Shown here: one piece after another, positions 2,546 through 35,272 of the stretch | Layout of the letters: each line of letters opens with the position of its first letter | Numbering within the stretch: the first letter of the stretch is position 1 | The notes under the pieces: model-generated | Databases searched by the model: none | What the model saw: only the letters and a program-made list of their open reading frames with translations | Told to the model about the DNA's origin: nothing | Source: Phytoseiulus persimilis | Taxonomy: Eukaryota > Arthropoda > Arachnida > Mesostigmata > Phytoseiidae | Assembly (NCBI GenBank): GCA_037576195.1 | Contig: CM075102.1 | Coordinates: 6,014,001 to 6,078,000 of the forward strand | Length of the DNA stretch: 64,000 bases | Direction: 5' to 3' | Made by a program: the position numbers and the translations under genes

Positions 2546-3476
2546 CAGCGGAGGGTGCGACCGCTTTCAAGGTCTGATCGAGGCGGAGAGACCGGTGCGC
2601 TCGGGGGAGGGGCTGTGGTCACATGAATTCCTAATGCACATAGCGGAGATGCAACCCGGAATGCGAGAACACCCCGATTAATGCCAGGGGTGCCGACTGT
2701 GTGCTCGTATTCAGAGAAACCGGATGCTCATGGAATCGAATTCGCTAGAGAGCACTCTGTATGAAGATATCGATCAGATTGTTGATCGGATTCTAGATTT
2801 GCTCGGAATTCTTCAATGCAACCCCGGTAGAACGGATTGGGCTTCCCCAAACGAATCTCTGTCGCTGCCTCTCACGGACGACCTTTTCCCACGTTTCAAT
2901 AAGATTCCGTGCCGGAGAAGGGAGTCACTCTGAGGCTGAGAAACAGGCCTTCCGTGAGATTCTGAACCGTCAGTGTGATCGAACCGGCTCCACACTCCGA
3001 TGCTTGCAATCGATTCGATTCTATCCAGCTTCTCTCTTCAGCTTAGAGTACGACTAGATCGTCAGGATATGCAGCGGAGAGAGTTTCAATCGACTCGCAC
3101 CGAGGCATCGCTAATTTCCAGACCCACGGTTCTGTGGGAACGGTAAGTGAGAACCGCGGTGCGGAACCGCGACCAACGGCGGAAACGATAACGGCAATTC
3201 ACAAACGTGCCTCACTCTCATTTCATGAAACTCACTCAAGCCTGGAGTCAATTACAACGGGGCGCAAGCCTTCACAATATCCCCGTATCGCTCGGTCTCC
3301 TGATGACGCGTCACGAGTCGGCAGCGGACTATTTTCTGTCAATCCATGCTGTTTGCTTGAATGTTTTCCCAAAGAGCTCGTTGATCTCCCACGATTCGAT
3401 TCCCGAGTTTCAAAACACGGCAACAATGGGTGACTGCGTTTGGAACTTCAACTGCAATTGCATCTGCGGATCCATT
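2546..3476. other. unassigned stretch
   Basis: Only short overlapping ORFs on both strands (for example 2724-2933 plus and 3232-3426 minus), none recognisable. It is the left flank of the LINE inserted at 3487. Before the later inversion this DNA lay next to the Helitron N-terminal fragment now at 19227-20219, so part of it could be old Helitron sequence. I could not confirm that from translations. Confidence 0.35.
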
Positions 3477-3486
3477 GCCCCTAGCT
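3477..3486 (+). repeat. target-site duplication of LINE 1, left copy
   Basis: GCCCCTAGCT, repeated exactly at 6445-6454. It marks the 3' insertion boundary of the minus-strand LINE, directly before its poly(T) tract (poly(A) on the element strand). Confidence 0.85.
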
Positions 3487-6444: not shown

Positions 6445-6454
6445 GCCCCTAGCT
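6445..6454 (+). repeat. target-site duplication of LINE 1, right copy
   Basis: Exact copy of GCCCCTAGCT at 3477-3486, closing the 5'-truncated LINE. Confidence 0.85.
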
Positions 6455-6986
6455 GCGAGGATGTATTGGGTGGATGCAAAAGTTCTGGGCCCCTAATTTC
6501 AATCGCTCATAACTCCGCTCCCGGGAGGCGCAGAAAGATGATGAAATAAATGAAATGAGCGGGATTGAGTCGGCTTTCAGATGGAATCAACCGCGACGTA
6601 TATTGAAGAGCACCGTGCTCACAGCATCGATTTTACTGGAAGGGTGGAAATTCGAAAAATCGCGATTTTGCAGTCCCGGCGAAACTAAGATTATGACCCC
6701 CTGTTTTCTCGTTCGTCGAAAAATAAGCGGTTTTAAAGAAAGGATTGAGCATTTTGGTCACGGCAAAGCGGAGATAGCGGCTCCCGAAGATTCGATTTTT
6801 TCGTGATTCTGTGGCGACTTTTTTTCCGCCGATTGAACGTCTCATGGATGGAATACGCTGGAATTTCTCTGGAAACTCTCAGAAGCCTCTCGGAAACGTC
6901 CTCTCAACGCTTTTCAGAAGAGATCTTAGAATCAGAGTCGGATTGTCGGAATCATTTTCGTCATCTCTAGCGACGGAAGACTCATT

Positions 6987-7433
6987 TCACTGCGACCCAT
7001 TCATCGGTATATACTCGCCAGTTGTTATCGACGGATTCTCGTTGAAGAGAGCAACCAAGTCGTCGTCACTCAGTTCGACAGGTCGGCCTGATCGTGCCTC
7101 ATCGTTCGGGTCCTGGTTGCTGTCTTGGAACTTGGCGAAGCACCTCTTCACTGTGGAAAGAGACGAAGTGGCTTCACGGAACGTGGGTTTCAATTGCTTC
7201 GTCTCGGCCGTTGAATTCCCCTTGAGGATCTCGTAGAGCATTGCGCTCCGGATCAGTTGATCTCGGGTGGCAATCCCGGGCTGATGGCTGGAGTTTTTGA
7301 AATTTTCACGTTCTTCCAGCGTATCCCATCCATGGGACCGTTCAACCGGCGGAAAAAGGGTCACCAAAAAAACAGAAAAATATTGAATCTTCGGGAGCCG
7401 ATATCTCCGCTTTGCCGTGACCAAGATGCTCAA
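6987..7433 (-). pseudogene. mariner transposase, N-terminal DNA-binding part only
   Basis: From about residue 57 the 148-codon ORF matches the paired helix-turn-helix region of mariner transposases: TRDQLIRSAMLYEILKGNS, then STVKRCFAKFQ, then DEARSGRPVELSDD and a final NENPS segment. This region binds the terminal repeats. The whole catalytic DD(D/E) domain is missing; sequence left of 6987 passes straight into the left inverted repeat. The first 50 or so codons overlap the right inverted repeat and are probably not real coding. It cannot catalyse transposition. Confidence 0.8.
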
Positions 7434-7664
7434 CTTTTTTTCTGAAACCGCTCATTTTTTGACGAACTCCATGTTTCCAAAGAGAAACCAGGGGGTCATA
7501 ATCTCAGTTTCGCCGGAACCGCAAAATCGCGGTTTTTCGAATTTCGACCCTTTCAGTAAAATCGATCCTGTGAGCACGGTGCTTTTAAAAGAAACCATCT
7601 GGAAGCCGGCTGAATTCCGCACATTTCGTTTATTTCATTCTCTCTCTGCGCTCTTGGGAGCGGA

Positions 7665-7672
7665 GTTATCAG
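7665..7672 (+). repeat. hAT copy A left flank; TSD partner is at 20260-20267
   Basis: GTTATCAG. It does not match the right flank of the same element (ATCAGAAA). It matches the reverse complement of the flank of hAT copy B at 20260-20267 (GTTATGAG) at 7 of 8 positions. This is the crosswise duplication pattern left by inversion between two opposed copies. Confidence 0.85.
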
Positions 7673-7689
7673 TAGGGCCCGAAACTCTA

Positions 7690-7800
7690 TGCACGAAAAT
7701 ATGCAAGAAATATGCACAGAATATGCACGAAATATGCACAGAATATGCACGAAATATGCACAGAATATGCACGAAATATGCACAGAATATGCAGTAAATA
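7690..7800. repeat. tandem ATGCAC-type subterminal repeats of hAT copy A
   Basis: About 14-bp units alternating ATGCACGAAAT and ATGCACAGAAT, six to eight in a row. Copy B has fewer units in the same place (about 22843-22910), which explains most of its shorter length. Subterminal repeats of this type are usual transposase-binding sites in hAT elements; that role here is inferred. Confidence 0.75.
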
Positions 7801-8300
7801 TGCGCAAAACATGAGCCGAATATGCGGGATATGCAGAATATTTTATGTTTACATCTGCACAGAAAATATTCGCTAGGTTCAGATTTCTGAGATGGCTCGA
7901 GATATTCCACGAGAGTGCAGCTTGTCGAGTGCAGTTCTTGCTATCAGATGCCTGGGGTCCGCCGATGTGAGCGGAGTTGAAGGTTTCGCGTCGAGTTCGA
8001 CTTGGGTTTGCGATGATGCAGTGAAGTTCATAGCTGAAGAATAGACCTTCCGAGGAGGAAATTGCTCAATGCTGAGACTGCGGGTGGATCAAGGACGAAT
8101 GACGAAGAAGCAGTAGAGAAATATGCATTCCGGGGAAGATAACTACGATAACTATTGGACTTTGTGCGGTGATGGAAAGTTCAGCCAACACACCTGTTGA
8201 TCACCTCATTTGTTGAGCCATCATCACCTCATGATGTCAAAAACTACTCAAGTTTGAAAGCGTAAATTCAGGTTTCATTCTCGAGGATCGACGAGATTCC

Positions 8301-9784
8301 TCATTGGTTACACAACACGACGATGTACTTCTTCAAGTTCTCGAACTCAAATGCTCTCCGATTGTCTCGCAGGAAGGATTTGAACCTTGAGAACGTGCGC
8401 TCAACTTCTACGGAAGTGATTGGGGCGTAAGTTAGCCTCGAGACGTCGTCCGCACTGAAAGCTTGAACGGCCTTCGAGATTTCTTCGCTGCATTCACCCT
8501 GCAGGGACCGAGCTACCAGACGTAGTTGCTGATATCCAGGGTTGTTCTCGAAGACTTTCACGGTCTTCTCGCGAACACCCAATAAACGCCGAGCCTTGAT
8601 GTTATTCATCGTCGCTCCAAAGTCTTCAATGATTGCCACGGCGTCGAGGCGGGACATGTCTCGAGTCTCAAGCCTCGTAATGAGTCCCGGTAAAGCGCCG
8701 AAGAAGGTCCGAATCGTCGCAAGTTCGGTTTTCACGGCGGGTATCCTTAGTATCTCCTGAGCCTTCGCGATAGCGTCGGCGTCGGTCGGATCAAGCTGAT
8801 CGCAGACGAAGCCGTGGATCTGTTCGAAGTTTTCTGCGTAGTACGTCGCGGCTTCAAGCCATGTGCCCCACCTTGTGAATATAGGAGAGGGGGGAGCGGA
8901 ATTTCTAGAGCCGCTCTGAACGCGACGATTAGGGAGGGGGCCTTCAAAAAGACCTTTTTGATGCTTGAAATGAGCAGATCAACGTTGGGGAAGGTCAGCC
9001 TGACTTCATCTGCAATTCTATGTAACCCGTGCGCTACGCAAGTCACATGGACCATTTTTGGAAACAGTCCTTGCAACGTACAAGCTGACTTCTTCATATA
9101 AGAGGCTGCGTCAGTTACGAAAAGGAGAACACGGTCGTGGTTCGTTTCTCCACGCCATCAAATTGATAAGCTGCGACAGAAAAGATGTGCGATTGTGGTT
9201 GAATTCGTCTTCTCTAATTGTTCGCACGCCAAGAGGTAACTCCTACTCGGCTCGTTCGGCATCAATCTCCCGACCAGTACATTGGCCACGTACCTCCCAC
9301 ATGAGTCGGTGGTCTCGTCGATTGAGATCCAGATCGGGGACTCTCCGATAGCAGATCTGATGCTTTCGAGGGTCTTGTCATACAGCGGCGACAAGTAACG
9401 TTCTCGTAACGACGTTGGACTAGGGACATGCTGGCCGGACCAGACCTCGAGGAAATTCTTCAAGGATTCGTTCTGGAGTTTTTCTAGAGGTATGTCAGCC
9501 TTCAAGAAAGCTTCGCATAACTCTCCGGAAAATTGTCTCCCTTGTGATTCACCTTCATTTGAGGACTGATCAGCCTGCCTTCTTTCGAGAGAAATTTGGT
9601 GGAGTCGCAGAGACTTCTCGTGCTTCTTCGTCGTCAGATGCTGTACGAGACTGAATCTTCGGGGTTTTTCAAAGGTTGTCGAGCACAGACCGCATTTGAT
9701 GGAGTCTCCAATGATGATGAAGAAGTCCGTGCCGAATTCTTCGACGAGACTTTCCAAGGTGCCTTCTCGTCTTTGCGTAGCCAT
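8301..9784 (-). pseudogene. hAT transposase (BED/CGGBP1-like finger), copy A
   Basis: Likely starts at the ATG at 9784 (MATQRREGTLES). An N-terminal BED-like finger C-x2-C-x14-H-x5-H (KCGLCSTTFEK...) resembles the CGGBP1-type fingers of this hAT group. The catalytic acidic motifs follow (SIDETTD, then FVTDAASYM), and the C-terminal hAT dimerisation block is present (APITSVEVERTFSRF...). The frame is broken by a TGA at 9158-9160 between SLSI and WRGE, and by a frameshift near 8780-8800. Exactly the same two defects occur in copy B. The protein would cut and paste DNA in the nucleus; this copy cannot make the full product unless by readthrough and frameshifting, for which I see no signal. Confidence 0.85.
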
Positions 9785-10374
9785 TTCCCGTTCGAAGCAC
9801 AAGCTCACTCTCCGAGTTCCTCCACGAACCGGGAGCTATCCTCGATGAGTCGTTCGCTGAGACAATGTTGCGAGATCCCTCTAGCGTCGTGTTCCGAAGA
9901 GTCTCTTTCTCGGAATCAATGTCTGTCGGAACCTCGACATTCGATAACGCGGTGTCAACATGCATGGTAAATGTGTCGTGATTCCCCACCTAATCACGAT
10001 GGACTATTGTCTGCGAGCATCCGGAACACACCAAGTCGGAATGTTGAAACTTCCGAAAGCACAATCTTCAGGGATATCCACATATGAAACTTGCGATCGT
10101 TCACTACGAACGTAAATCGAGCGCGAGATCATCAATCGAGAGAAGAGTAATCTGAAGAGTTGAGAGAAAAGTTTGTGTTGAAGCTGTTCCACGGAGAACG
10201 AATTCTGGGCGGAGTGGGAACGATCTTTCCTCGCAAATCGTCACTAGCATATAGAATATGCAAGTCGCATATTCGGCGTTAAAAATGCATATTTTATATG
10301 CAAACTGCTTTTTTTCTATGCAAAATATGCATCTTGCATGCTAAATATGCAGTTGCATAGATTTTTGGGCCCTA

Positions 10375-10382
10375 ATCAGAAA
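10375..10382 (+). repeat. hAT copy A right flank; TSD partner is at 22926-22933
   Basis: ATCAGAAA. Its reverse complement TTTCTGAT is identical, 8 of 8, to the right flank of hAT copy B (22926-22933). It is therefore the displaced partner of copy B's target-site duplication. Confidence 0.88.
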
Positions 10383-10449
10383 ACACAATGGAACAAGTGA
10401 AGATGAAACAAACAGGCATCGCGAGACCCCAAAGTGAAATGTTGACGGT

Positions 10450-11870
10450 GAGACGTCGGCTATACTCATCAGCATAATTCATTGAGCAATGCACACATAG
10501 CGACAGCAACAACGGGCAAAGCAGTGGTCGGGATAAACGGAGTAACTGTTCATGCCGCTTTCCGGCTCACTCCATCGAGACAAACGGCGCAACTTCCCGA
10601 AGCATTGCTCCAAACTCATTGCCATCTACTGCAAAACGTTAAATGTGTGATCATAGACGAAATAAGTATGTGCAGTTCACATGTTTTCCATTCGGTCAAC
10701 ACACGATTACAAGGAATGAAAGGCGAATACGGGAACAACTTCGGCGGTTTAGATTCGATCGCTTGCGGCGACCTTAAACAATTACCACCACTCAATGCTG
10801 CTCCAGTGTACAGCACTGTACAGAGATCTCTAGAAGGTAGAGCTGTTCGATGGCAATCGTTGGAATATTTTCCGCTAGTGAGAGTGATGGGGCAAACCGA
10901 TATCAACCTCTCCGCAGTGCTCACAGAAATCGGTTGCGACGAGAAAATAGATGCGCAGTAAACGAACATTGTCGAAGATTCCGTGCACTTTAAACTTAAT
11001 CTGAATGATGAGAGCCTCTGGTTCCGAATACTCGAAGAGTCGTAAGCACCGTTCTTCAGAAAGCGGACTGAGAATTGGTACAGCGTTGGCGTAGCATACG
11101 CGACGATTACGACGACTACAACGATAGGTAGAATACGATGTTTATTGAAGCAAAGTAAGCTGCTTATATATCCCATGGATCGGGGTTACATGAGAGGGTA
11201 ACTATAGACGTGCGCTTCCGTCAGGGACGCCGTACCATGGCCATCGGCTCGTCAGCCGATGTCGCTGTATGCTTGGCCGTCTGAGCGAAATATTACAACA
11301 AACATGTTCCAATCACGATTCCGACCGCAAGGTCGGTGTGACGATAACTTACACAGTGACGTAGTCCACCTCTTCTTCAACAACAAAGATGTTGAAGCCT
11401 ACAACAGAGACGCGGTTCCTACCACACCAACCACCGAGATGAGCATTGCGTCGGATTCTTACATGGGGTACAGGTCGGGGTGCATCGCATGAAATGTCAA
11501 AACACAGGCAATCTGCCGTACAGTATCACATCCACTGAAGGCTGTCCATGCATGCTAACAATGAGCATACATGTGGAAGATGGATTTGTAAACGAAGCCA
11601 TGGGCAAGTTACGTCACGTTGAAAATCTTCCAAGCTCGTGTGACGACACAGGTCGAAACGTGTATGGCTAGAATTCGACACCGACTATATAGGACGTCTG
11701 AAACGGTTGAAATACAGCCCCCGTATCCGCTCCAAATCAGAAGTTCTCAGAGAGCGATGGGTACCAATCGAATTACGATCAGCAAGTATAAAAGTACCAA
11801 CTAGGATAAAATGTAGCCGACTCCAATTTCCGCTCTTGTCAGCTTGCGCACTAACAATCCATACGGTACA
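10450..11870 (+). pseudogene. Helitron PIF1-like helicase, broken and truncated
   Basis: Superfamily 1 helicase motifs appear in order: ATTGKAVVGINGVTVHAAFRL (motif Ia region), VIIDEISM (Walker B) at residues 56-63 of the ORF at 10482-10961, GDLKQLPP (motif III), then after a break HLFFNNKDVEAYNRDAVP (near 11370), a VNEAMG motif near 11590 and QFPLLSACALTIH near 11850. Helitron helicases unwind DNA during rolling-circle-type transposition. The Walker A segment and the Rep nuclease are absent upstream. A stop at 10959-10961 and about 300 bp of foreign sequence separate the two halves, further frame changes occur near 11490 and 11700, and the protein stops just after TIH, where KSQG should follow. 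Confidence 0.8.
10965..11285. other. unidentified insertion inside the Helitron helicase
   Basis: Helicase homology stops near 10961 and resumes at SRFRPQ near 11310. The intervening DNA has no motif I recognise; it contains a short hairpin (CATCGGCTCG/CAGCCGATG near 11241). I could not identify clean termini or a duplication. Confidence 0.35.
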
Positions 11871-11871
11871 T

Positions 11872-11945
11872 GACATTTCGGCCCCGGACATTCCGGCCCC
11901 AGAATTTCCGGCCCTGGACTTTTCGGCCCCAGACTTTTCGGAGCA
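11872..11945 (+). repeat. degenerate tandem repeat, about 15-bp unit
   Basis: About five units of the form TTCGGCCCCGGACAT / TTCCGGCCCCAGAAT. It begins directly where helicase homology ends and is followed within 15 bp by the Tc1-like fragment, so it may mark a breakpoint or an element end. Confidence 0.7.
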
Positions 11946-11954
11946 CCTCGTTTG

Positions 11955-12340
11955 AAGCTTCCCGAGCGAGAAAGACGTCATATCGGAAATGTGGGGTGCT
12001 CCATACCTCCAAAACCTCGTGGTCCATTTTCCCCGACGAAAAAAAGTTCAACCTTGACGGGCCGGAGAGCAATTCAAGTTACTGGAGAGACTTGCGGAAG
12101 GAGCCTCAATCTTCAGCAAGTGGAACTTGGGCGGTGGCTCTGTCGAGCCGCATTCAGCAAGTGGGGCAGGTTTGTGTCGTGTCGTATGAACAGTGCAAGG
12201 CTACGTGCAAGTTTCAAAAAGAAGTTTACTACTGGTTCTGAATAATTTTGACGACGAAACCCTCATCCGCCAGCAGGACAATGCCTCTATACACACCAGC
12301 AGAGATACTTCAGCGTGGTTTCGTTCCGAATGGAAACTTC
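11955..12340 (+). pseudogene. Tc1/mariner-family transposase fragment
   Basis: PDEKKFNLDGPE with YWRDLRKEP near 12030-12100 is the region around the first catalytic Asp of Tc1-like transposases. IRQQDNASIHTS near 12270-12300 carries the second catalytic Asp. The reading frame changes at least twice between them, and no terminal repeats were recognised. It is a different family from the mariner at 6464-7672. A decayed internal fragment. Confidence 0.75.
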
Positions 12341-12364
12341 ATCCTCTCCAGCGAGTCAATAACT

Positions 12365-12610
12365 TATTTTCATTCGCCAGTTCTGGAATTTGATATCCTA
12401 CATTGAACTTGAATGGATGGAGAAAATCAGCCCAGAGAACCTATCTCTGTTCCGGGCCCCGTTCCGCACTAACGACGGCATCGAGTCCTTCAACGCCAGA
12501 CTGAAACGGATGGTCAAGAAAAATAATCCCGCAGTTTGAGATCTGATGGGTACTTTTGGAGCCACTATCTGGAGCCTTATTCGTCAATTTTCCATCAACC
12601 GCCATAGGCT
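12365..12610 (+). pseudogene. Mutator-like (MULE) transposase-type C-terminal fragment
   Basis: Reading from FWNLISYIELEW through LSLFRAPFRTNDGIESFNA, then RLKRMVKKNNPAV, a TGA at 12537-12539, then DLMGTFG. The pattern R-TND-xxESFN-x-L followed by (H/N)NP-x-(V/L)-W is seen in MULE/FLYWCH-linked transposase relatives; the TGA stands where Trp is usual. It is only about 80 codons. Assignment is by motif recall and moderately uncertain. Confidence 0.5.
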
Positions 12611-13195
12611 CATTAGATGGGATGTACATTGCTTCATAGCAGGGATCGGCAAACTTCTCCCGCTCGAAATATGCCCCGAATCATGGCACCGAGGCCCAAA
12701 ACTTGAAGTTTGGGTGACCTGGGCGAGATTCCTGACCGGCTCCGGGGCCCAAGTTTTCGGGTTGATTTCGCCGACCCCTGCTTTGGAGTACAGGCTTCAG
12801 CCATCATTAGTGACCTAATCTCCGCTTTGTCGCGAGATGCCCCTATCGATTTCATCAAATGTGACTCATGATTGATCCTTCAGCTGGCATATGTAAATTG
12901 TTCCAAGACGCAACTATCAACCAGGGAACCCACGAAGTAGAAGGGGTTGAACGGGTATTATCACGGCCAGGAGTCATCACTAAAGGAAACGAAAAGATCA
13001 TCCAGCAAAACTGGGATCTCTTAGCAACGGGCTACATCAGTCCCCGGGCGTTCATCGGGCGAATGAAATGAGTCGGCAGCTGTGAGCTCCTAAAAGGCCT
13101 GTAGAGGTTGTGACACACATCAATTATGACATTCCACCACGAAGTCTGACTCTCAAAGCATCGGTCTTTCATCAATAGCACATCTGCGTCGCCTC
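12611..13195. other. unassigned stretch
   Basis: No recognisable coding. A 67-codon ORF at 12868-13071 has no motif I know. It lies between the MULE scrap and the SENP-like fragment. Confidence 0.35.
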
Positions 13196-14677
13196 ATGCG
13201 TCATTTGAAGAGCCAGTCTTCGAAGCACCACATACTAGAGCAGTGGATGCGGAATAAAACTATGAACGATGGACATGATCACGGAGAAACCTCGCGGAGC
13301 CCATGTGATCACGATTACGCGCGACAAGCTTCACACGACGCGACCTGGGACGCAGAGCTCCATCAGTCGCTTAGAAGCCCGATCGCGAACCAAGGTCTCC
13401 TGGACAATCACCCTCAAGAGGTCGCCGCGTCCGAGGATATGACATCGAATCCTCAAATTCCGCCGATCAGTGCGGACATGAACGCGGTTATACACGAAGC
13501 TTTGATTAAGCCACCTGACAAAGTTCTCGCGCGCGTATCGAACCTACCCATTGCGCGCCGTGATCTGGAAACACTTTTGGGCCTCAACCTGAAGAAGAAG
13601 TTTACGGGTCCGTCCGACAACTATTTCAAAAAATTGAGGAGGCGGGGTTTTCGGGTGGGGGGGGGGGGGGGGGAATTCTCGGATCGACCCGACAACTCCT
13701 TGGTCGGGTAGTCTGGACCAATCTAAGAGCTTTTTGCCATCGAAAAATTTTCCGAATTCGGCTTCCCTGAGGAGTTACGGGCCGAAATGCATAGAAGACG
13801 CGATCTTGAGGTCAAGGTTGAAACGATCTTTCGTCCGCCTCAGAAATCCTGAGCTAGAAATCTGGAGTTGCCGGGCGTTTGAGCAGCATCCTATCCTGTG
13901 TCGACTTCGACAGTTACGACTTCGATCGGTCGACTTCAGAAGTTTGCCGACTGTTTTTTTGAGAAAACTTGAAAGTAAAGGCAATCTCTGATTTGCGAAA
14001 ATCGAGGACGAAAAGATGCGCCATCCTTCCAGCTATCGAATGCAAAAAAAAGTCCGGAATCGGATAATTTTTCACCGAATAATGAACAAAAGAAGAGAAA
14101 GTAAGAAAGTTCCCGACTTACGATGACCACCCTGTACTTGGAGCTCATCGTTAAACGAAGCACAGAGGTGACGCACCTCCCGAAAGTGTACGCCTCCGAA
14201 ACCTACTTCCTGGAGTGCTGCAGCAAACATGGTTACAACGATGTTCGGGAGTGGACTCGGCACGACGATATATTCGCCTACGATATTGTCCTGGTTCCCA
14301 TCTTCCGCAAAAATCATTGGAGCATGATTGTCATCGATATGCGGGACAAGGTCATCAAGTACATGGATTCTATGAATGGCCTCAACGATGAGTGCCTGCT
14401 GATGCTGTACAATTACCTAGAGGAAGAGCCAGCGGACAAGAAGAGATCTTGGCTCGGTTGCGATGAGTGGATGCTCGTTCACGTCAACGAAGTACCGCAG
14501 CAGCAGAATGGCTCTGACTGCGGAGTGTTCGCGCTCAAATTCGCGGATTTCGAAGCCCGGGACGCCTGGATGAATTTCAGCCAAATCGATATGCCGTATT
14601 TCAGACGTCGGATGATGTTTGAAATCCTTGAGTGCGCGATACTTCCGGCAGTTCATGGTGAACCGTTGAAAAACTAG
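13196..14677 (+). pseudogene. SUMO-specific protease (SENP/Ulp1) fragment, interrupted
   Basis: Two blocks in the same frame. The first (13196 to about 13590) ends with the start of a Ulp1 peptidase domain: IHEALIKPPDKVLARV, then LPIARRDLETLLGLN. The second (14123-14677, 185 codons) has the rest: DIVLVPIFRKNHWSMIVID with catalytic His65, YMDSMNG with Asp82, and QQQNGSDCGVF with oxyanion Gln127 and nucleophile Cys133. These enzymes remove SUMO from proteins or mature its precursor. About 530 bp separate the blocks, and the expected W-L-N-D segment of roughly ten residues is missing, so a simple intron does not restore the domain. The interruption contains a 17-bp G run. Most likely a disrupted gene copy or transduplicated fragment; an unusual intron structure is the alternative. 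Confidence 0.7.
13657..13673 (+). repeat. poly(G) run of 17
   Basis: A homopolymer within the sequence interrupting the SENP-like fragment. Length is likely to be unstable or unreliably sequenced. Confidence 0.8.
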
Positions 14678-16392
14678 TTTCGATACAATTTCGAGCTCTG
14701 TGATGAAATGTGATAACTGTTCCGAAGGCTCCCTGTATATTTGCCCATGGTTTGAGCTTCTGGAGTGTATACGTGACTTAATGGAACGCGATCATAGGAA
14801 TAGATATCCATATCTGTGTGTTCGATGACTGAGATCCCAGATCGCTCAATTGGCCCTCAAAGGAGTTTCAGGTCTCGACGAAACGACGGGAGGCAAAACC
14901 TGAGTCTCTTCAGCTCTGATTCCCGCTCTCTCGAAGTCTGAAGAAAGTCGCCGACCCGAACTCAACATTGCTTACTCGATTCTTCCACCATTTTGCGGGA
15001 ATTCGGCCCTCCATAGTCCACACCTCTCCTGGACGAGCTCTCGAGCAGGACAAGGGGAGGAAACTCGATGGGTGTAGGTAGCACTTCTTTAGGGGGATAC
15101 CGATACACTGTTGCCTCCCATCTGTGATGGCACTCTCCCCCGAAGATGGCACGTCGGAATCGTTCGGTCTGACGTTGATTCGGATGAAAAAACGATGTTC
15201 TCAGATTGCACTGGAACACCGTTCAACGTGATCCACTGGATCAAACCAGAGGATCGACCACGTTCCCGTCGGAATCGTCCAGTCCGGCGTGGATTCGGAT
15301 GAAGTAACGATGTGTGTCCAGCTACCGTGCTAGCGAGATGGCGGCGCTTGTGGTCGTGTTCAGCTGACGTAGTCTCAAGAACCCTCAACATTTCCAACCG
15401 CTCGTGCTCCAGCAGTCTGCGCGGGTGGTTCTCTCCCCCGTCAAGTTGACCGGAGAACGGCCATGTTTTTTCGAGACAGTGGCCGACTCCCCATGCGCGC
15501 GAGATTCTAGAGTTGGGCGAAGGTGAGAGGCGAAGAGCGACCTGGTTTCGAGTCGGACACGATGGCAACCGCACAGATTGCTCTTGAAGCCGCCACCAGT
15601 ATTCCGGAGAATAAAACTGAGGCAGAGATGAAAGATGGAATCTTGTTTTTGTTGAGAATAACCTCGCAATCGGAGGTCATCAAGTTCCTTTCCAAATCCA
15701 TTCTGGGTGAAGATGACACCTTTCTCCAAGCGAACAAACGAGAAACCTGGCCGCACCTGATAGGGGTACGATGGTGCCAGAAAGACGTGAAGGCAAGCTG
15801 TAGGCGAGAGTGCACTGGTAGGCTGCTCTTAAGGACATGTTGAGACCCTTTTCCATCAAAGAATTCAACGTGCAACAATATGTGCCGTTTACAGCTCAGC
15901 TGCGAAGTGCCGCAGATTTCGAATCAACGGCTGCCAGACTCGGTTATCGACGCATTCCCCGATGAAATCCCACATAAAATGCTCATCTGTATTTAGCACT
16001 CGATCGGATTCAAGCTGATGCTCATCAAGATCATGATTGATCCACCTTCCGCCTATCGCCCGCAACTGGATCTCTTCATTTCGCGGAGAGCCCCTGTCAG
16101 CCGTTTTGGTTCGTGAATACCGTCAAATCGATTGCGACTGGAGACCTCCTTCATCTAACGCATCGGCTGCCTGGGAGAGACCTAGGCTCCAGTTGACACA
16201 AACGGGTCCTGTGTGGGTCTACGGTTGCGAAGAGCCTTACGTTCGGGGATCGCCTACCGAGGATCTTTCAGATTGCAGGTTGAAGCTTGAAATATGTGCA
16301 TGAAATCCTGAGGACAACGAAGAATCTCGATACACATGAGCACCATGCACAGTCTCTTGCACCCGATGACCGCCGCCGTTAGGTGCCGTAAC
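14678..16392. other. unassigned stretch with a dispersed repeat near its right end
   Basis: Only short unrecognised ORFs, for example 15523-15843 plus. The segment 16055-16190 resembles 57220-57350 (shared blocks around ATCTCTTCATTTCGCGGAGA and TTCATCTAACGCA), so it belongs to a dispersed repeat of unknown class. A shorter related block appears near 58615-58660. Confidence 0.45.
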
Positions 16393-16394
16393 TA

Positions 16395-16515
16395 GACATC
16401 ATATTCCGTAGTACGGCAATTGAATTTCCGTACAAGGAAGTACGGAAATTGAATTGCCGCACTGGGCCGGTACGGAGATTCAGTTGCCGTACTCCGTTCT
16501 ACGGAATATGATGTC
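16395..16515. mobile_element. small palindromic MITE with TA duplication
   Basis: A 121-bp imperfect palindrome: GACATCATATTCCGTAG... on the left, and its reverse complement ending CTACGGAATATGATGTC on the right. TA flanks both sides (16393-16394, 16516-16517). The TA target fits a Tc1/mariner-mobilised MITE. It has no coding capacity. Confidence 0.8.
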
Positions 16516-17104
16516 TAGTCGGAATCGAGTTACAATTGCACGGGGGTTCGTGCTGGTCAAATCGGATTCCGAAAATCTTTTTGACTGCCGTTTGTTGCTT
16601 GAGCTTCGTCGTATTTCCGAAATCGTCAACAAGCGTGGAGTAAATGTCAGCCGCGACGTACTGCGAGATGTCACCACTGAACTTGAGCTGGATCAGCGGC
16701 ATTTCTAGAGAGTTTATGAGAATCGCGCGATCGAGTAGGTTTGCCTTTGCATATTTTTGGACGGTTGTTGCGAGCTGGCCCATCGCGCATTCGGAAACGT
16801 TTGGCTCCGCCATCAGAAGTATCTGGATAGACGTTCTTCACGGGACAAAGTTCCTGGCTCGGAGGTCGAGGCGATATGCCGCCAAGTTGGCCAGTCGGTT
16901 TCCAGAAGGAAGGTTTGACATGTTTCGAGTTTGTGCAACTTGGGGTGCGTTCAGCAGGGACGGAGTCGAGGAACGCGGGAGATCGGGACTAGGCGTTTAT
17001 AGACGACCAGCCGGCCTTTGGCCGACTGGAGTCGGCCGCGCTGTGCGCGGTTGGACGGCGTTCCGTGGCATCGAAACACCCTTCACTGAATCAGCATCAT
17101 GGTT

Positions 17105-17470
17105 TTGAAAAGTATGGTTAAATTGGTCTCGTGATCACTCCTCCAGATTCGGAGAAGTATGGTCAGATTGGTCTAGGAATCACCCCTCCAGAGTTGGAAA
17201 GTAATGGTCAGATTGGTCTCGGAATCACCCCTCCAGAGTTGGAAAGTAATGGTCAGATTGGTCTCGGAATCACCCCTCCAGAGTTGGACAGTAATGGTCA
17301 GATTGGCCTCGGAATCACCCCTCCAGAGTTGGAAAGTAATGGTCAGATTGGTCTCGGAATCACCCCTCCAGAGTTGGAAAGTATAGTCAGACTCGTACCG
17401 GAATCACCTCTCCAGACTCGGGAGAATATGTTCAGATTGGTCCCGGAGTCACCTTCATGTCTTCCAGAAA
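17105..17470 (+). repeat. 45-bp minisatellite
   Basis: About eight tandem units of 45 bp (for example GGTCAGATTGGTCTCGGAAT starting at 17206), the central ones nearly identical and the outer ones diverged. Because 45 is a multiple of three, two frames stay open through the array (repeating ITPPELES.. or SESPLQSW..). These are by-products of repeat length and not evidence of a gene. Inverted, diverged units of the same repeat recur at 18915-19025. Confidence 0.88.
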
Positions 17471-18479
17471 AAGTGCGGACAAACTGACAGACTAAGCCGA
17501 TTATATATAGTAAGGATAGGTCGAGGAGACGGGCGATGGATTCTAGGGAGTCGTCAGGTTGGGTGGACAACGGTATAGGGGATGGCGAGCGCAGAACTTC
17601 AAATTCACTGCTTTCGGAAGATGAATTGGTCATGAGTGAACGAATAATATTCGCAGCGACTGTCTCAATGTCAGCGTGTGCAGTGACTTGGTACCTGTGA
17701 TGCCAATATTGCGGTCTTTGGGAATGCCTGCCAAAGGGGACACGGAGCGGGTGGGCGTAACAACGACTCAAGAGACACCGGACACGAGTCGTGCGAGTGG
17801 AGGAATTACTCGTCGAGCTTCAAGTGCTGGTAACGTGTCGAGTTGGGTATTCCGGCTCGGCGGACCACTAGCAGCAATGGGCCAACGAATCTCACTGGAA
17901 CCTCATGCACAGGCACGCTCATAGTAGAGCACCAACTGACCGAGCAACGGATGAGAACGACTGTGCGTTATTCGTGCGACTATGGGGTTTATATGGGGTA
18001 CCTATAGCTGTGAGGGTTGATTCTCTCCTACCTAGCTGGTTTCCTATTGGTTGATTTCCATCGCCATACCTACGGATGTCCATGGTACTCACGACCATCG
18101 CTTCCTGCCCTCGATGAGGCTTCCCATGAAGCAAAACTGCGTACTAGTTCATTCTCCTTACGCAGCAGGGGCATCATGAGCTTGCAGTCCGAGGGCGTTC
18201 GGTTGTATGTTATTCTCTCGTATGTTGAAGCCGGCCTGTCGCCGGTAACCAGTTCCTAAAGATCTCTCTCGAGGACGCGGAGTACAGAATCCTCTCAGTC
18301 AGACCACGGTTCGACGGGGCGAAACACTGGGCTCGACACTATCGACAACGGGCTCCAAGGAATCAGATAACCAAAAACAGCAGTTGCGAGATACACATCA
18401 TTCGCTGAGGGTTCAGTTGCAGAGTTGGGATCTTCTTCCACTATCCAAAGCTGGCTTTCCTTCGCCCACATCACCTCGA

Positions 18480-18494
18480 GAGATTTCTGATCCC
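18480..18494 (+). repeat. SINE copy 1 target-site duplication, left
   Basis: GAGATTTCTGATCCC, repeated exactly at 18769-18783. Confidence 0.88.
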
Positions 18495-18768
18495 TTTTGT
18501 TTTCCGGCTGAACCTCTCAGCCAGCCCTCAGAAGTGTCCCGGAATCACCTTTCGGTATTGCTTCAGAAACACTCCCTATCGCCTCGCAAATCCCATTGCG
18601 GGCGGTGGGCTTGGGTCTTAAGATGGTTCAGATTCAATTCTGATATAAATTGAATCCTCTTTTTACCACTCAAGAAATTTGTTGTCCCGGCCGGGGATCG
18701 AACCCGCGATTGCTAGCTTAGCGTGGCACCCAAGGCGTTGGTTTATGCCACACGGCCAACGAGCCGGC
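18495..18768 (-). mobile_element. tRNA-derived SINE, copy 1 (full length)
   Basis: A 274-bp SINE in minus orientation. The tRNA-like head lies at the right end; its RNA polymerase III box B (GGTTCGATCCC on the minus strand) is at 18694-18704 and a box A-like TGGCCGTGTGG lies about 50 bp upstream. The body continues leftward to an A-rich 3' tail beside the left duplication. The exact 15-bp duplication shows LINE-type retrotransposition. Three more copies are at 44297-44572, 45022-45293 and 55370-55573, all in the same orientation. Confidence 0.88.
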
Positions 18769-18783
18769 GAGATTTCTGATCCC
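18769..18783 (+). repeat. SINE copy 1 target-site duplication, right
   Basis: Exact copy of the 15 bp at 18480-18494. Confidence 0.88.
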
Positions 18784-18914
18784 ATCAATAATTTACCACG
18801 ATCGGTGTCGAGGACCAGTGGAGCTACAGCGCCGATGAGGCAAAACATTGCGAAGCTTTTCTCAAGGCCTATCGAATGCTATAGGCAGCGGGTCGCGGTG
18901 ACCTCTTTTTAAGT

Positions 18915-19025
18915 CGAGGAGACAAGTCTGAGCATAGTTTTCCAAGTCTGAAGGGGTGATTCCGGGACCAATCTGAGCATACTTTTGGAAGTCTGGGAGG
19001 GTTATTCCGGGATCGATCTGGGGAA
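18915..19025 (-). repeat. inverted units of the 45-bp minisatellite
   Basis: About two and a half units; the reverse complement reads ...CCCGGAATCACCCCTTCAGA... and resembles the array at 17105-17470. The two blocks form inverted arms about 1.4 kb apart, with SINE copy 1 between them. Confidence 0.75.
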
Positions 19026-19226
19026 AAACCGCTTCTACTCATATTCAACTGCTGATATCTCGGCGCCGCAAATTCGCACCGGGATGAAACTTGCCGCGCG
19101 ACTAGAGGATGAAAATGAGTACCTTCAGCGACATCCAACTTGATTTGCGGGAAGCGACCGTGAACCATGTCGAACTTTCAAAAGCTATGGGCTATGAGTC
19201 TTTGAAAGCAAGATTATGTTCCAGCG

Positions 19227-20219
19227 TTGAACCGACAGAAAATTCCACATCTGGCAGCATACAATGGTTTCCGATACCCAGCAAAACCCGAAGATCTCCC
19301 CCCATTGAACGCAATCACCACTCGACTGATATCTCCACGATACCCCTACATGCAGATTCGCCGTCTTCGTCAGCCTTGCGGAGCCCATTCGATTGTGGGC
19401 CAGGTGATTAATGTTCCCGTCGATGTTCAACTCATGTTTTCATTTCTACCGCGTCAATTGAGCGAAGATCAGGCTTTCCATGTAGCGTTTAAGAGACGCC
19501 TCATCCATGAAAGCTCCGCCTAGGCGGGTTTGTTAAGTGGACGCGACGTGAAAGCCTGGCCGTACTACCTACAGACCACGCCGCTGTACGGATTGTACAA
19601 CATCGTGGTAGACTGGTCACAGTTTGATGATGCACCCGATGGCAGTCAACAACTCAAGCTGGAGAATGTCGGCGCCAACGGCGATGGAGACTTGCTCACG
19701 GCTCGGCATGAATTCCCGACACTCGGAACTCGGAAATCAATATTCGGCTCAAAAACGGAGATCCAGCATCAACGGACGTTTCCAACCCACCGAAATCATC
19801 CAAGAAATAGTTTCCGACTTGGGTATGAGAAACAGATCATCTATAGGAGGATTTGAACCTGTGATCCGCCATTGGCTCCGTTGAGACGCTTTTCACTTAT
19901 TCGCTTGTATGAGTGGGATCATATCCTCCTATAGATGCTCCGTTTCTCATTCCCAAGTCGGAAACTATTTCTTGGATGATTTCGGCTTGGAAACGTCCGT
20001 TGATGATGGATCTCCGTTTCCGAGTCAAATATTAATATCCGATTAGGAAATTATTTTCCGAGTTCCGAGTCTCGGAAATTCATCCCTACTCACGGCTAAT
20101 CAACGAACTGTCCATCGCAGTGAGGATAAGTACCTGGAAATTACTCCTGGTCAACAGTCCGTTCCATTGGGCTGCTTCTATGACGAACATGCAGAAGAAT
20201 TATCTTTCCCAGACATCTA
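19227..20219 (+). pseudogene. Helitron-type N-terminal region (DUF6570-like), interrupted
   Basis: Conserved segments: PLNAITTRLISPRYPYMQI and VGQVINVPVDVQLMFSFLPR in the first ORF (19227-19523), TPLYGLYNIVVDWSQF in another frame (to 19694), and after the MITE, YLEITPGQQSVPLG and AEELSFPDIY up to 20217. These are typical of the cysteine-rich N-terminal region upstream of the Helitron Rep domain. A stop at 19521-19523 and a frame change separate the first two parts. The MITE at 19704-20088 splits the gene so precisely that the frame is continuous once one duplication is ignored. It ends at the TA target of the displaced mariner end. It is probably not the same copy as the helicase at 10450-11870, because the order is wrong. 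Confidence 0.75.
19704..20088. mobile_element. Mutator-type MITE with 9-bp duplication
   Basis: A 385-bp non-coding element with imperfect inverted repeats of about 150 bp or more: CGGCATGAATTCCCGACACT at the left, and the right end, reverse-complemented, TAGGGATGAATTTCCGAGAC. The flanks are exact 9-bp copies, CTCACGGCT at 19695-19703 and 20089-20097. Nine-base duplications with long inverted repeats are the mark of Mutator-like transposition. It could be related to the MULE-like transposase scrap at 12365-12610; that is inference. Confidence 0.88.
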
Positions 20220-20267
20220 TTGGGTGGATGCAAAAGTTCTGGGCCCCTAATTTCAATCGCTCATAAC
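20220..20267 (+). mobile_element. displaced right terminus of the mariner at 6464
   Basis: The first 46 or so bases of the mariner terminus (TTGGGTGGATGCAAAAGTTC...) in plus orientation, preceded by TA (20218-20219) and cut by hAT copy B. It is the missing outer end of the right repeat at 7310-7672, moved here by inversion. Confidence 0.88.
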
Positions 20268-22925
20268 TAGGGCCCGAAAATCTATGCAACTGCATATTTA
20301 GCATGCAAGATGCATATTTTGTATAGAAAAAAGGCAGTTTGCGTATAAAATATGCATTTTTAACGCCGAATATGCGACTTGCATATTCTATATGCTAGTG
20401 ACGATTCGCGAGGACAGATCGTTCCCACTCCGCCCAGAATTCGTTCTCCGTGGAACAGCTTCAACACAAACTTTTCTCTCAACTCTTCGGATTACTCTTC
20501 TCTCGATTGATGATCTCGCGCTCGATTCACGTTCGTAGTGAACGATCGCAAGTTTCATATGTGGATATCCCTGAAGATTGTGCTTTCGGAAGTTTCAACA
20601 TTCCGACTTGGTATGTTCCGGATGCTCGCAGACAATAGTCCATCGTGATTAGGTGGGGAATCACGACACATTTACCATGCATGTTGACACCGCGTTATCG
20701 AATGTCGAGGTTCCGACAGACATTGATTCCGAGAAAGAGACTCTTCGGAACACGACGCTAGAGGGATCTCGCAACATTGTCTCAGCGAACGACTCATCGA
20801 GGATAGCTCCCAGTTCGTGGAGGAACTCGGAGAGTGAGCTTGTGCTTCGAACGGGAAATGGCTACGCAAAGACGAGAAGGCACCTTGGAAAGTCTCGTCG
20901 AAGAATTCGGCACGGACTTCTTCATCATCATTGGAGACTCCATCAAATGCGGTCTGTGCTCGACAACCTTTGAAAAACCCCGAAGATTCAGTCTCGTACA
21001 GCATCTGACGACGAATAAGCACGAAAAGTCTCTGCGACTCCCCCAAATTTCTCTCGAAAGAAGGCAGGCTGATCAGTCCTCAAATGAAGGTGAATCACAA
21101 GGGAGACAATTTTCCGGAGAGTTATGCGAAGCTTTCTTGAAGGCTGACATACCTCTAGAAAAACTCCAGAACGAATCTTTGAAGAATTTCCGCGAGGCCT
21201 GGTCCGGCCAGCATGTCCCTAGTCCAACGTCGTTACGTGAACGTTACTTGTCGCCGCTGTATGACAAGACCCTCGAAAGCATCAGATCTGCTATCGGAGA
21301 GTCCCCGATCTGGATCTCAATCGACGAGACCACCGACTCATGTGGGAGGTACGTGGCCAATGTACTGGTCGGGAGATTGATGCCGAACGAGCCGAGTAGG
21401 AGTTACCTCTTGGCGTGCGAACAATTAGAGAAGACGAATTCAACCACAATCGCACAGCTTTTCTGTCGCAGCTTATCAATTTGATGGCGTGGAGAAACGA
21501 ACCACGACCGTGTTCTCCTTTTCGTAACTGACGCAGCCTCTTATATGAAGAAGTCAGCTTGTACGTTGCAAGGACTGTTTCCAAAAATGGTCCATGTGAC
21601 TTGCGTAGCGCACGGGTTACATAGAATTGCAGATGAAGTCAGGCTGACCTTCCCCAACGTTGATCTGCTCATTTCAAGCATCAAAAAGGTCTTTTTGAAG
21701 GCCCCCTCCCTAATCGTCGCGTTCAGAGCGGCTCTAGAAATTCCGCTCCCCCCTCTCCTATATTCACAAGGTGGGGCACATGGCTTGAAGCCGCGACGTA
21801 CTACGCAGAAAACTTCGAACAGATCCACGGCTTCGTCTGCGATCAGCTTGATCCGACCGACGCCGACGCTATCGCGAAGGCTCAGGAGATACTAAGGATA
21901 CCCGCCGTGAAAACCGAACTTGCGACGATTCGGACCTTCTTCGGCGCTTTACCGGGACTCATTACGAGGCTTGAGACTCGAGACATGTCCCGCCTCGACG
22001 CCGTGGCAATCATTGAAGACTTTGGAGCGACGATGAATAACATCAAGGCTCGGCGTTTATTGGGTGTTCGCGAGAAGACCGTGAAAGTCTTCGAGAACAA
22101 CCCTGGATATCAGCAACTACGTCTGGTAGCTCGGTCCCTGCAGGGTGAATGCAGCGAAGAAATCTCGAAGGCCGTTCAAGCTTTCAGTGCGGACGACGTC
22201 TCGAGGCTAACTTACGCCCCAATCACTTCCGTAGAAGTTGAGCGCACGTTCTCAAGGTTCAAATCCTTCCTGCGAGACAATCGGAGAGCATTTGAGTTCG
22301 AGAACTTGAAGAAGTACATCGTCGTGTTGTGTAACCAATGAGGAATCTCGTCGATCCTCGAGAATGAAACCTGAATTTACGCTTTCAAACTTGAGTAGTT
22401 TTTGACATCATGAGGTGATGATGGCTCAACAAATGAGGTGATCAACAGGTGTGTTGGCTGAACTTTCCATCACCGCACAAAGTCCAATAGTTATCGTAGT
22501 TATCTTCCCCGGAATGCATATTTCTCTACTGCTTCTTCGTCATTCGTCCTTGATCCACCCGCAGTCTCAGCATTGAGCAATTTCCTCCTCGGAAGGTCTA
22601 TTCTTCAGCTATGAACTTCACTGCATCATCGCAAACCCAAGTCGAACTCGACGCGAAACCTTCAACTCCGCTCACATCGGCGGACCCCAGGCATCTGATA
22701 GCAAGAACTGCACTCGACAAGCTGCACTCTCGTGGAATATCTCGAGCCATCTCAGAAATCTGAACCTAGCGAATATTTTCTGTGCAGATGTACACATAAA
22801 ATATTCTGCATATCCCGCATATTCGGCTCATGTTCTGCGCATATTTACTGCATATTCTGTGCATATTTCGTGCATATTCTGTGCATATTTCTTGCATATT
22901 TTCGTGCATAGAGTTTCGGGCCCTA
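20268..22925 (+). mobile_element. hAT transposon copy B
   Basis: Near-identical to copy A but in plus orientation: TAGGGCCCGAAA starts at 20268 and TTTCGGGCCCTA ends at 22925. At 2658 bp it is 44 bp shorter, mainly through fewer subterminal repeat units. Its own flanks (CTCATAAC and TTTCTGAT) do not match each other; each matches a flank of copy A instead. Confidence 0.9.
20858..22341 (+). pseudogene. hAT transposase, copy B
   Basis: Same gene as in copy A: BED-like finger, SIDETTD, FVTDAASYM and the C-terminal dimerisation block. It carries the same in-frame TGA (21482-21484) and the same frameshift near 21780-21840. Only a handful of residues differ (for example TTNKHEK versus TTKKHEK, FREAW versus FLEVW). 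Shared lesions mean both copies descend from an already defective element moved by transposase supplied elsewhere, or have been homogenised by gene conversion. Confidence 0.87.
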
Positions 22926-23449
22926 TTTCTGATACGTGTCATCTCACCGCGAGATTGCGAGTTGGATAGAAACTTGCATCCAACAGTTGATTCCATGCCT
23001 CATACTCGAATTTGCCAATGTTTTCACCGAAATGCAGTTCGTTGGAACGCAAATACCCTCGAACACAATAGTTCAACAACAGAACGACTGCTGTGTCAAA
23101 ACTGACTCACAACAATCGCGCACTTCCCGAGGAACCCGTTCTCTCATACCGATTCGCAACCGAATGAAACGGTTATTTGTGCCGATTTTCCAGATTCTCG
23201 AGGGGGTAGACAAATGAATGCTGCAGACACATTTACGCTTGTCAGAACAACACCAAAATCTAATACAAGACTTCACCGTAAATTTGCAAGGTTTCAAGAC
23301 ACAACGGAGTCCTCTATGCTCGCCAGAACCGGAGTTGTACGGCTTCAAAAGCGTACAAATTCCGTCCCTCAAATGACGACGCAGTCCCAGACGGGTCCCT
23401 AGAAGTATTCGATAAAAACGTTTTCACGTTAAAAGATTTCTAATCAAAG
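22926..23449. other. unassigned stretch
   Basis: The first 8 bp are the hAT B flank TTTCTGAT. Short ORFs on both strands (22936-23217 plus, 23073-23372 minus) are not recognisable. Before the inversion this DNA continued into what is now 10375 onward, so it could be decayed Helitron sequence. Confidence 0.35.
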
Positions 23450-24332: not shown

Positions 24333-26210
24333 TTGTCCTCCAACAGTGAACAGCAGCAAACAAGCGAGCCGGGACCTTCCCGTGTTCCTTCCAGCAAATT
24401 CACTAAGGACGACTCAATATTCAAAGATCTTTCCTCCATCCGAGCTGCGCCTTCGTCTGAGGACACTCAACTAGCAGAACTTCTTGATCAGAAGAAATTC
24501 GAGCGTCGTACTCTACTCGTAAAGTTGATGGGCATCAAGGACATGATCATCGATGTCGATGCAACGAAACTATCCCCGGAGCAAGTGAGCCAGAAACTCA
24601 CGGCTATGGGCCCCTTGTTCGAAGCGGGTGAAGCTGAGCTCGCCGTTCTGTCGGACGAGATCGACGAGTTGGCCCTGCGGCTAAGGCGTGAGGAACCTGA
24701 CGATAAGCTCGGTACTGTTCAGCACCGCTGTCGGTTGGCCGAAGCCAGGGTTTACTTCAACCAATTGAAGGATTGGGTGGCGTCATCGTCGCAGCAAGGT
24801 CGTTCTCGCGCGCACTCAGCGGAAGATGTTGAGAGCGTGAGTCGTTGGATCGCCTCGAGAGCACTCCCGTCAACCCACCACCGCAGCCTTCGGACGACGG
24901 TGTACGCTTCAGATACAGCTTCATGGACGCAGCTGGCCTGGCGCGGGATGGATCTGGTCAATGGATCCGAAATATTCAGAGCCAGCCAGCTCAACCAGCC
25001 CAGCAAGTCGCTCAGCAGCCACACATCCTCTCACCAGAGCGGCTGCCGTTCACGTCGGAGCCGCCGGCGTTTCCCATGAGTAAAGTCTACTTCCCGCCCT
25101 CGGACCCGAACCGCCGGTAGCACACAAGGCACCCCATCGCCTTTTCTGGCGTCACCAGCGACGTCGCAGTACCAGTCCCCCCCTCAGAACCTCCGAGAGT
25201 TGCGTCGCTTGGTCTTCCCGAACAGTTCAAGGCTTCGCAGCCTGAACTTATGGGCCAGCCTTACGGCGCTCCGGCTGCCAGTCGCCCAGCCGCGGATCTT
25301 GGTGGTAGAGCTAGGCAAGTTCCGGTGTTTTCCGGCGACGTCACGAGGTTCAGAGAGTGGCAGCAACTTTTCAAGATCTTCGTCGATGACACTTCGGCTT
25401 CTACCATCGAGAAGTTCAACATGCCGCTCACTATCCGGAAGAGCCAAAGACGCCGTTGCGCACCTGAACCGGGAAGACGGCCACTATCAAATCGCGAAAG
25501 GAATCCTGCAAGACAAGTTCGGCGATGGCAAGCTAGCACAGAAGGTCCACGTGAACGAGCTCATATCGCTCGTTGATCGAGGCCAGGTCTCAAACAACCG
25601 CCTCGAGTCGTTCTCGGACACGCTCAGCCTGCACGTTCGCGCTCTCATAGCCATGGGCCTCTCGTTTGCCGAGCTGACCATCATGTTGACCCAGCGCGCG
25701 CTACAATGCCTTCCCCCGGACCTTCGTGAGAAGTTCGTGAGGAAATATCGCAAGCAACGCCTTAACGATCCGCTAATGACAGAGCTGGAGTTTCTCATTG
25801 CCTTCCTCGAGCTAACAGTCAAAGACAGAAGAGAGGCCGAGTGGGACTTAAGCGCTGGTCGAAGAGATAGAAGGAGACCGCTTTCGGCGGGCCTAACGCT
25901 CGGCGGCAACGGCTCATCGCGCTTCAGAGCTCCCGCTCCTGCTTATCAGGCAATGAGATCGAATCATGCCTTCTTCTCTGCCACGGAGCCGTCAAAAATT
26001 CCTGTATCGCGAGCCTCCGCTGTCAACCAGTCGCGGCCGACTTCTCAGCAAAGACGCTCCCCATCCGACACCCGTCCGACGTCGCGAACAGGGACCAATC
26101 GCCCACCACCACGTCCGCCGACAGTCAACAGCCTGACGTCGAATCTGCGTCCATCGGCTTCTTCTCCTATCGCCTCCCAGAGGTTCGGCAGATCATGCAT
26201 CTTCCGCGAG
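24333..26210 (+). pseudogene. Bel-Pao element 1 gag (DUF1759-type)
   Basis: The gag frame moves. Codons from 24333 to about 24840 are in one frame (SSNSEQQQTSEPGPSRVPSS...), 24845 to about 25430 in a second with a TAG at 25118-25120 (…VPVFSGDVTRFREWQQLFKI, the DUF1759 start), then back to the first frame from about 25430 (LSGRAKDAVAHLNREDGHYQ...). Gag forms the particle that carries the element RNA. The C-terminal part is Ser/Pro/Arg-rich, and no zinc knuckle is left before the join to RNase H at about 26215. Confidence 0.8.
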
Positions 26211-28956: not shown

Positions 28957-29196
28957 CGTCAAATAACCATGTCTCTTATCCAATGATGATCGCGTATTCC
29001 TAGAGCTCTCAAATACAATTCGAAAGCGCCGCCACCTCTAAGAGAAACGTGCAGAATAAACCCTCTCCAACAAGTGTGTGTGGAGCGAATGAATCGAGTG
29101 GCGAATCCATCGCGTTTTCCGTTCCCAAAAAGTAAAAACTCTCGCATGGTGCCCGCTATACGATAGGGAGTCCTAAGCACATAAGATTCCTTAACA
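28957..29196 (+). repeat. Bel-Pao element 2, 5' LTR
   Basis: A 240-bp LTR starting CGTCAAATAACC (the 3' copy starts TGTCAAATAACC, so the first base has mutated) and ending CTTAACA. AATAAA at 29055-29060 is a candidate polyadenylation signal. Confidence 0.92.
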
Positions 29197-29207
29197 TGGT
29201 GCCGTGA
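29197..29207 (+). promoter_or_regulatory. primer-binding site, tRNA-His type
   Basis: TGGTGCCGTGA immediately follows the LTR and is complementary to the acceptor end of animal tRNA-His (…TCACGGCACCA). Complementarity does not obviously extend further. Confidence 0.55.
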
Positions 29208-35267: not shown

Positions 35268-35272
35268 TTGTT
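35268..35272 (+). repeat. target-site duplication of Bel-Pao element 2, right
   Basis: TTGTT, matching 28952-28956. Confidence 0.85.

Follow-up and report, generated by a model that had tools for sequence, protein, structure and literature searches.

Probable inversion of a 9.9-kb segment of the Phytoseiulus persimilis genome by recombination between two opposed hAT elements

The stretch of DNA analyzed here (the window) comprises 64,000 bp of the phytoseiid mite Phytoseiulus persimilis, C2:6014001-6078000 of a 181-Mb, 127-contig assembly (GCA_037576195.1; C2 is contig CM075102.1), and contains two hAT transposons, A and B, lying in opposite orientations on either side of a 9.9-kb segment. 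A first-pass annotation, made from the letters of the window, had proposed that this segment was inverted through the two copies and that the order now seen is derived; the flank letters and coordinates that it gave were all correct on re-reading. We compared a single assembly and reconstructed ancestral sites from paralogues; loci with L-numbers were cut from the same genome and are paralogous to the transposons of the window. The argument turns on the following features.

7673 to 10374, minus strand: hAT copy A, 2702 bp, with broken transposase frames on the minus strand
20268 to 22925, plus strand: hAT copy B, 2658 bp, in the orientation opposite to A
10375 to 20267, no strand assigned: putative inverted segment, 9,893 bp, between opposed hAT A and hAT B
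7665 to 7672, plus strand: A-left flank GTTATCAG, putatively one half of A's original duplication
20260 to 20267, minus strand: B-left flank CTCATAAC, reverse complement GTTATGAG, putatively A's other half (7/8 match)
10375 to 10382, plus strand: A-right flank ATCAGAAA, putatively one half of B's original duplication
22926 to 22933, plus strand: B-right flank TTTCTGAT, putatively B's other half (8/8 match, inverted)
7850 to 9184, minus strand: putative recombination tract in A, matching B without a difference over 1,335 bp
21458 to 22792, plus strand: the same 1,335 bp in B

Together, A and B form an inverted repeat of 99% identity. The terminal inverted repeats are short, with TAGGGCCCRAAAMTCTATGCA at both ends, and are unequal in length between the two copies. 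The read-through protein matches PF04937 (E 5.7e-12, 46 bits against a cut-off of 34.7), and this domain is present in all 120 homologues listed of 501; DUF659, the RNase H-like core that PF04937 tests for, marks hAT transposases. The C-terminal dimerization domain PF05699 falls under its cut-off in the C-terminal transposase piece (E 0.065) and is not reported for the read-through at E 0.1; it was found in some of the homologues listed. Among those 120 matches the named ones are from arthropods plus one nematode, the first being from the phytoseiid mite Galendromus occidentalis (48% identity, 86% covered). Sequence searches of PDB with two transposase pieces returned nothing useful. The 8-bp duplications, the short terminal inverted repeats and the transposase core place A and B in the hAT superfamily.

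Other members of the family carry ordinary target-site duplications: all seven copies with both flanks fully readable (L002, L003, L005-L008 and L068) are flanked by their own perfect 8-bp duplications, and those of L067, L069 and L070 agree as far as they could be read (5-6 left-flank bases each). For A and B we found no full match within either copy and, as the first-pass annotation had described, a crosswise match at 8/8 and 7/8 positions. The C at 7670 in the A-left flank is derived, since the base is G in 13 of the 13 other mariners read there; one base of A's duplication would thus have changed.

The match itself stands, but the weight placed on it was too great, because chance agreement is far more frequent than 4^-8. 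Insertions of this hAT family strongly favor targets approximating NTNATNAN. Ten independent duplications, of which three were read on their right side alone, give 45 pairs; five of these pairs match at 7-8 of 8 positions, one of them perfectly, when the better of two orientations is taken, and L008 and L070 (right copy) have the same 8-mer as their duplication. A position-weight model gives a probability of 3.7e-3 for 8/8 and 4.1e-2 for 7/8 or better, or 1.5e-4 jointly, where uniform bases would give 6e-9. Because the element prefers NTNATNAN-like targets, the duplications alone may match by chance at the joint rate. We therefore regard them as good evidence rather than proof; it is the flanking sequence that lifts the case far beyond chance. 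At the site where hAT B would originally have inserted, that flanking sequence is a Helitron, H1.

10375 to 10969, plus strand: Helitron H1 beyond hAT B's insertion site, comprising flank and a PIF1 helicase piece
22926 to 23434, minus strand: Helitron H1 on the opposite side of the hAT B insertion, with repeat paralogues

The 509 bp to the right of B have 50 matches in the genome, and we read 11 loci (L030-L040) besides the window's own. In 10 of these 11 the B-right side adjoins the A-right sequence in the orientation that a flip predicts, the exception being L039; in L032 the A-right similarity is lost after about 16 bp and comes back displaced by about 27 bp. The 8-mer site is single in the H1 paralogues, identical in L038 and one or two bases off in the others. 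In one paralogue, L040, the PIF1 piece (10452-10961; PF05970, E 8.9e-17) is accompanied by both flanks. Since the two sides are adjacent in 10/11 paralogues, H1 would be continuous after the flip. The site of hAT A involves a mariner, m1, and a second Helitron, H2.

6464 to 7672, minus strand: mariner m1, with TA at 6464-6465, a Mos1-type helix-turn-helix (HTH) domain on the minus strand and its right end apparently removed by hAT A
20218 to 20267, minus strand: TA plus 48-bp right end of m1, apparently carried off by the inversion
19206 to 20217, plus strand: N-terminal coding part of Helitron H2 (DUF6570), ending at the m1 TA and continuing at C2:6012645-6012806, left of the window
1 to 3486, no strand assigned: tandem-array unit of the C3:24.76-24.84 Mb type, enclosed by m1 and a second mariner, m0, left of the window
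3487 to 6444, minus strand: non-long-terminal-repeat retrotransposon (reverse transcriptase), inserted 19 bp from the mariner TA within the array unit

A TA target, terminal inverted repeats and the Mos1-type HTH domain (PF17906, 26.8 bits against a cut-off of 24.1) identify m1 as a mariner. Its missing end does lie reversed beside hAT B, at 20218-20267, and m1 restored by the flip measures 1,247 bp without the TA, in agreement with the complete mariner of about 1.25 kb that had been predicted. Of 19 other mariner loci, all 13 that are readable continue with an end like 20218-20267; of the remaining six, four are read from the opposite arm and two have alignments that stop early.

The first-pass annotation had treated this mariner as a single insertion, which it is not. 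A second mariner of m1's type, the internally deleted m0, lies immediately to the left of the window, at C2:6012805 (C2:6012805-6014000; L071, L072), in direct orientation to m1 and with one array unit between the two (window 1-7672), so that m1 is the right-hand member of a two-mariner block. For this reason the left and right neighbors of m1 come from different places. The unit resembles those of a tandem array at C3:24764655-24844126, which has several units at a spacing of about 5.36 kb; in the units read, the same mariner insertion breaks an open frame and has a right neighbor other than H2. The empty site of that insertion could be aligned across at 13 of 37 matched loci, while the other 24 were one-sided (22 array units, the window itself and one locus elsewhere).

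Upstream of 20217, H2 matches DUF6570 (E 3.2e-13). Its frame ends ...EELSFPDIY at 20217, abutting the mariner end, where its relatives L064-L066 run on ...IYYGVARQFRQGVKVTPFQ. Immediately to the left of m0, from C2:6012806 on the minus strand, the frame resumes with FGVPRQCRPGVHVTPFQ..., as in three relatives: the minus-strand sequence there reads FGVPRQCRPGVHVTPFQVVTTEIRRRDRRG..., an in-frame continuation that aligns with these over 54 amino acids (61-63% identity; E-values of 4e-17 to 5e-18 when that 3-kb stretch is searched). The segment m0 - array unit - m1 is thus one TA-flanked insertion in H2. Because H2 is in frame across this block, the end at 20217 must abut the right end of m1, which is what the flip provides. 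This copy of H2 is decayed: it contains a foldback repeat at about 19713-20073 (within 19700-20100), of a kind with many copies genome-wide, and reaches a stop after 46 codons past the TA.

A third line of evidence comes from the hAT copies themselves. The 1,335-bp tract is the longest identical run among pairs of 12 hAT copies: A and B show 0 differences in 1,335 bp inside it and 20 in 1,323 bp outside (1.5%), and such a run has a probability of about 2e-5 given 20 uniform differences. When the divergent copies L069 and L070 are dropped, the A/B pair ranks first inside the tract and 16th outside it among the 45 pairs of ten copies, and other pairs of the first eight copies differ at 8-24 positions in the tract region. 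States shared by A and B only all fall within the tract (five sites with eight copies compared, four with twelve). At four of the 20 differing sites outside (9404, 9444, 10114 and 10366), each of the two states is also present elsewhere in the family, and A and B therefore look like independent insertions. The contrast of 0 with 20 differences indicates that A and B last exchanged sequence long after both had inserted. Judged from these comparisons, the tract is the trace of recent recombination between A and B.

H1, H2, the mariner, the duplications and the tract all support the inversion that the first-pass annotation had proposed, and H1, H2 and m1 become whole only when the segment is flipped back, which bears out its claim that the present order is derived. 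We conclude that ectopic recombination between opposed hATs A and B very probably flipped 10375-20267. In the ancestral order supported by the sequence, m1 adjoined H2 at its right end and carried hAT A in its right terminal repeat, and hAT B lay in H1. The two copies, inverted and 9.9 kb apart, would have paired and crossed over by non-allelic homologous recombination within or beside 7850-9184, flipping the segment, swapping the hAT flanks and leaving a 1,335-bp conversion tract. The nesting implies that Helitrons H1 and H2 came first and that the mariner block then entered H2; hAT A would later have inserted in m1 and hAT B in H1, and the inversion would have followed the two hATs, with the retrotransposon entering the array unit at some point before or after hAT A or the inversion. 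The ancestral order, the likely mechanism and the relative age can be recovered because older transposons serve as broken rulers.

Several points weigh against this conclusion. The restored sites were compared with paralogues rather than alleles, the A-left and B-left flanks mismatch at one of eight positions, and the frame test in H2 spans just 46 codons because that copy is decayed. We also looked for the reciprocal half-exchange between A and B, for which markers are few and one side of the tract offers only 133 comparable bp. Finally, a conversion without crossover, at a later time, could have produced the tract.

Delprat and colleagues reportedly set out the traces expected of ectopic recombination, and the inversion-linked element in the 1992 work of Lyttle and Haymer on Drosophila melanogaster is said to have been hobo. 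According to PMC2775673, ectopic recombination leaves opposed copies, exchanged duplications, chimeric copies and no loss or gain of DNA, with a single target in uninverted chromosomes. At the present locus we found opposed homologous copies, exchanged duplications, a target that is single-copy in the paralogues and no loss or gain; neither restored site has a deletion or duplication, and the completeness of both fits the prediction. The same paper ascribes the Drosophila buzzatii inversions 2j, 2q7 and 2z3 to ectopic recombination between Galileo copies, and the likeness extends to the two opposed copies, the exchanged target duplications (2z3), the recombination trace within the copies and the lack of loss or duplication. 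Here, however, the element is a hAT rather than Galileo of the P superfamily, the segment is 9.9 kb, the ancestral order comes from paralogous transposons in the same genome instead of uninverted chromosomes, and any reciprocal chimerism of the two copies is putative. hAT-linked inversions are known in D. melanogaster (Lyttle and Haymer 1992, as cited in PMC12368964). The citing paper describes hAT-derived miniature inverted-repeat transposable elements (MITEs) at inversion breakpoints in Atlantic cod, with ectopic recombination proposed, a case like ours in having hAT-type repeats at the breakpoints but resting on tandem MITE accumulations, unlike the two hATs of the window. The main text of PMC12368964 nowhere uses 'target site duplication', 'TSD' or 'gene conversion'.

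Among the alternatives, the one that survives best, although we consider it unlikely, is misassembly. The true chromosome would then be in the flipped order, with the wrong flanks joined through the 99% inverted repeat and the identical core made by consensus building. A long identical core invites misjoins, and these would yield exactly the crosswise pattern observed. However, the window is without any N, so there is no marked scaffold gap at the breakpoints and any error would be intra-contig, and the four contigs of 28-55 Mb suggest long reads, which would usually span 2.7 kb.

We give even less credence to hybrid-element insertion, in which a pair of sister copies of hAT A behaved as a single element and entered H1, producing the inversion together with a fresh 8-bp duplication. 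As PMC2775673 has it, the predicted outcome is near that of ectopic recombination, save that the copies are identical. Outside the tract, however, A and B differ by more than either does from L003, both states at the four sites named above occur in other members, and the terminal repeat lengths differ.

When reversed-ends transposition occurs in maize, the DNA between the elements is lost. The corresponding scheme here, which we find hardly credible, is that facing ends of directly repeated hATs entered H1, inverting one side while the DNA between them disappeared. It requires only one 8-bp match, and Ac elements in maize behave in this way; PMC9910405 offers a parallel in Ac/fAc, also of the hAT superfamily, with an inversion and 8-bp duplications at the endpoints. 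It seemed the best explanation while m1's home right neighbor appeared lost, since the array copies of the m1 insertion and the 13 empty-site paralogues had shown a home neighbor other than H2. The continuation of H2 beyond m0 ended that argument: the neighbor supposed to be lost lies beyond the left edge of the window, and flipping restores both H2 and m1. Moreover, deletions or duplications are expected when aberrant transposition starts from separate sites (PMC2775673), and none are seen. The mechanism here would differ from that of Ac/fAc, and the loss of DNA between elements is absent.

Three other candidates were rejected. A chimeric mariner formed by mariner-mariner recombination has little room for a crossover, as array markers in m1 reach 7532 (7644 by a looser criterion), and is unneeded given H2. 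Integration of an array-derived circle into a mariner in H2 should have left m0 or m1 largely non-array, and both are array-type throughout, although an array-type mariner resident in H2 beforehand would undo this rejection. That A and B are copies of one insertion is at odds with their divergence outside the tract.

Apart from the inversion, the block in H2 is a candidate composite transposon, in which m0, one period of the C3 array and m1 would have jumped into H2 as a unit; we judge the chances of this to be even. It would later have received the retrotransposon and hAT A and then been split by the inversion. In its favor are the reading frame of H2, which holds across the whole TA-flanked block, and the mariner sequences: the array mariner differs from 11 others at 49 sites, and m1 has the array state at 20 of them; m0 covers 39 of the sites and has it at 15, with 14 common to both. 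Array-type states span 6523-7312 in m0 and 6523-7532 in m1. Against a single clean jump, the array unit is about 95% identical over 1982-3486 and 90% over 1-477, m1 matches full-length array copies at 92-93% and m0 at 88-89%, m0 and m1 match each other at 89%, and 28 array-type sites are found in neither (eight of them without an m0 letter). No natural mariner-flanked composite was apparent among 12 of the 23 titles that a literature search found, and we do not claim that none exists.

Other elements were seen in the window. The retrotransposon at 3487-6444 has a second copy on C4 at 97% identity. Within the inverted segment lie a Ulp1-type protease frame at 14105-14677 (PF02902, E 2.6e-31) and, at 17059-17418, a 45-bp minisatellite to which some array and Helitron loci have similar sequence. 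Farther right are frames of a BEL/Pao-type long terminal repeat (LTR) retrotransposon at 25080-27836 (Peptidase_A17, E 5.1e-19) and direct repeats at 28996-29200 and 35065-35271, 98-100% identical and 6.07 kb apart, which are possibly the LTRs of a young element.

If the composite is real, a natural Tc1/mariner macrotransposon that moves several kilobases of array DNA would be less ordinary than the inversion. The inversion itself represents a clear single-genome case of a transposon pair overturning chromosomal DNA, a kind of event that is already well known. Where a transposon has a strong target preference, matches between target-site duplications can mislead if taken alone. A genome-wide scan could look for the combination of exchanged duplications, paralogous empty sites and an identical tract, and small inversions mediated by transposable elements might thus be counted without population data.

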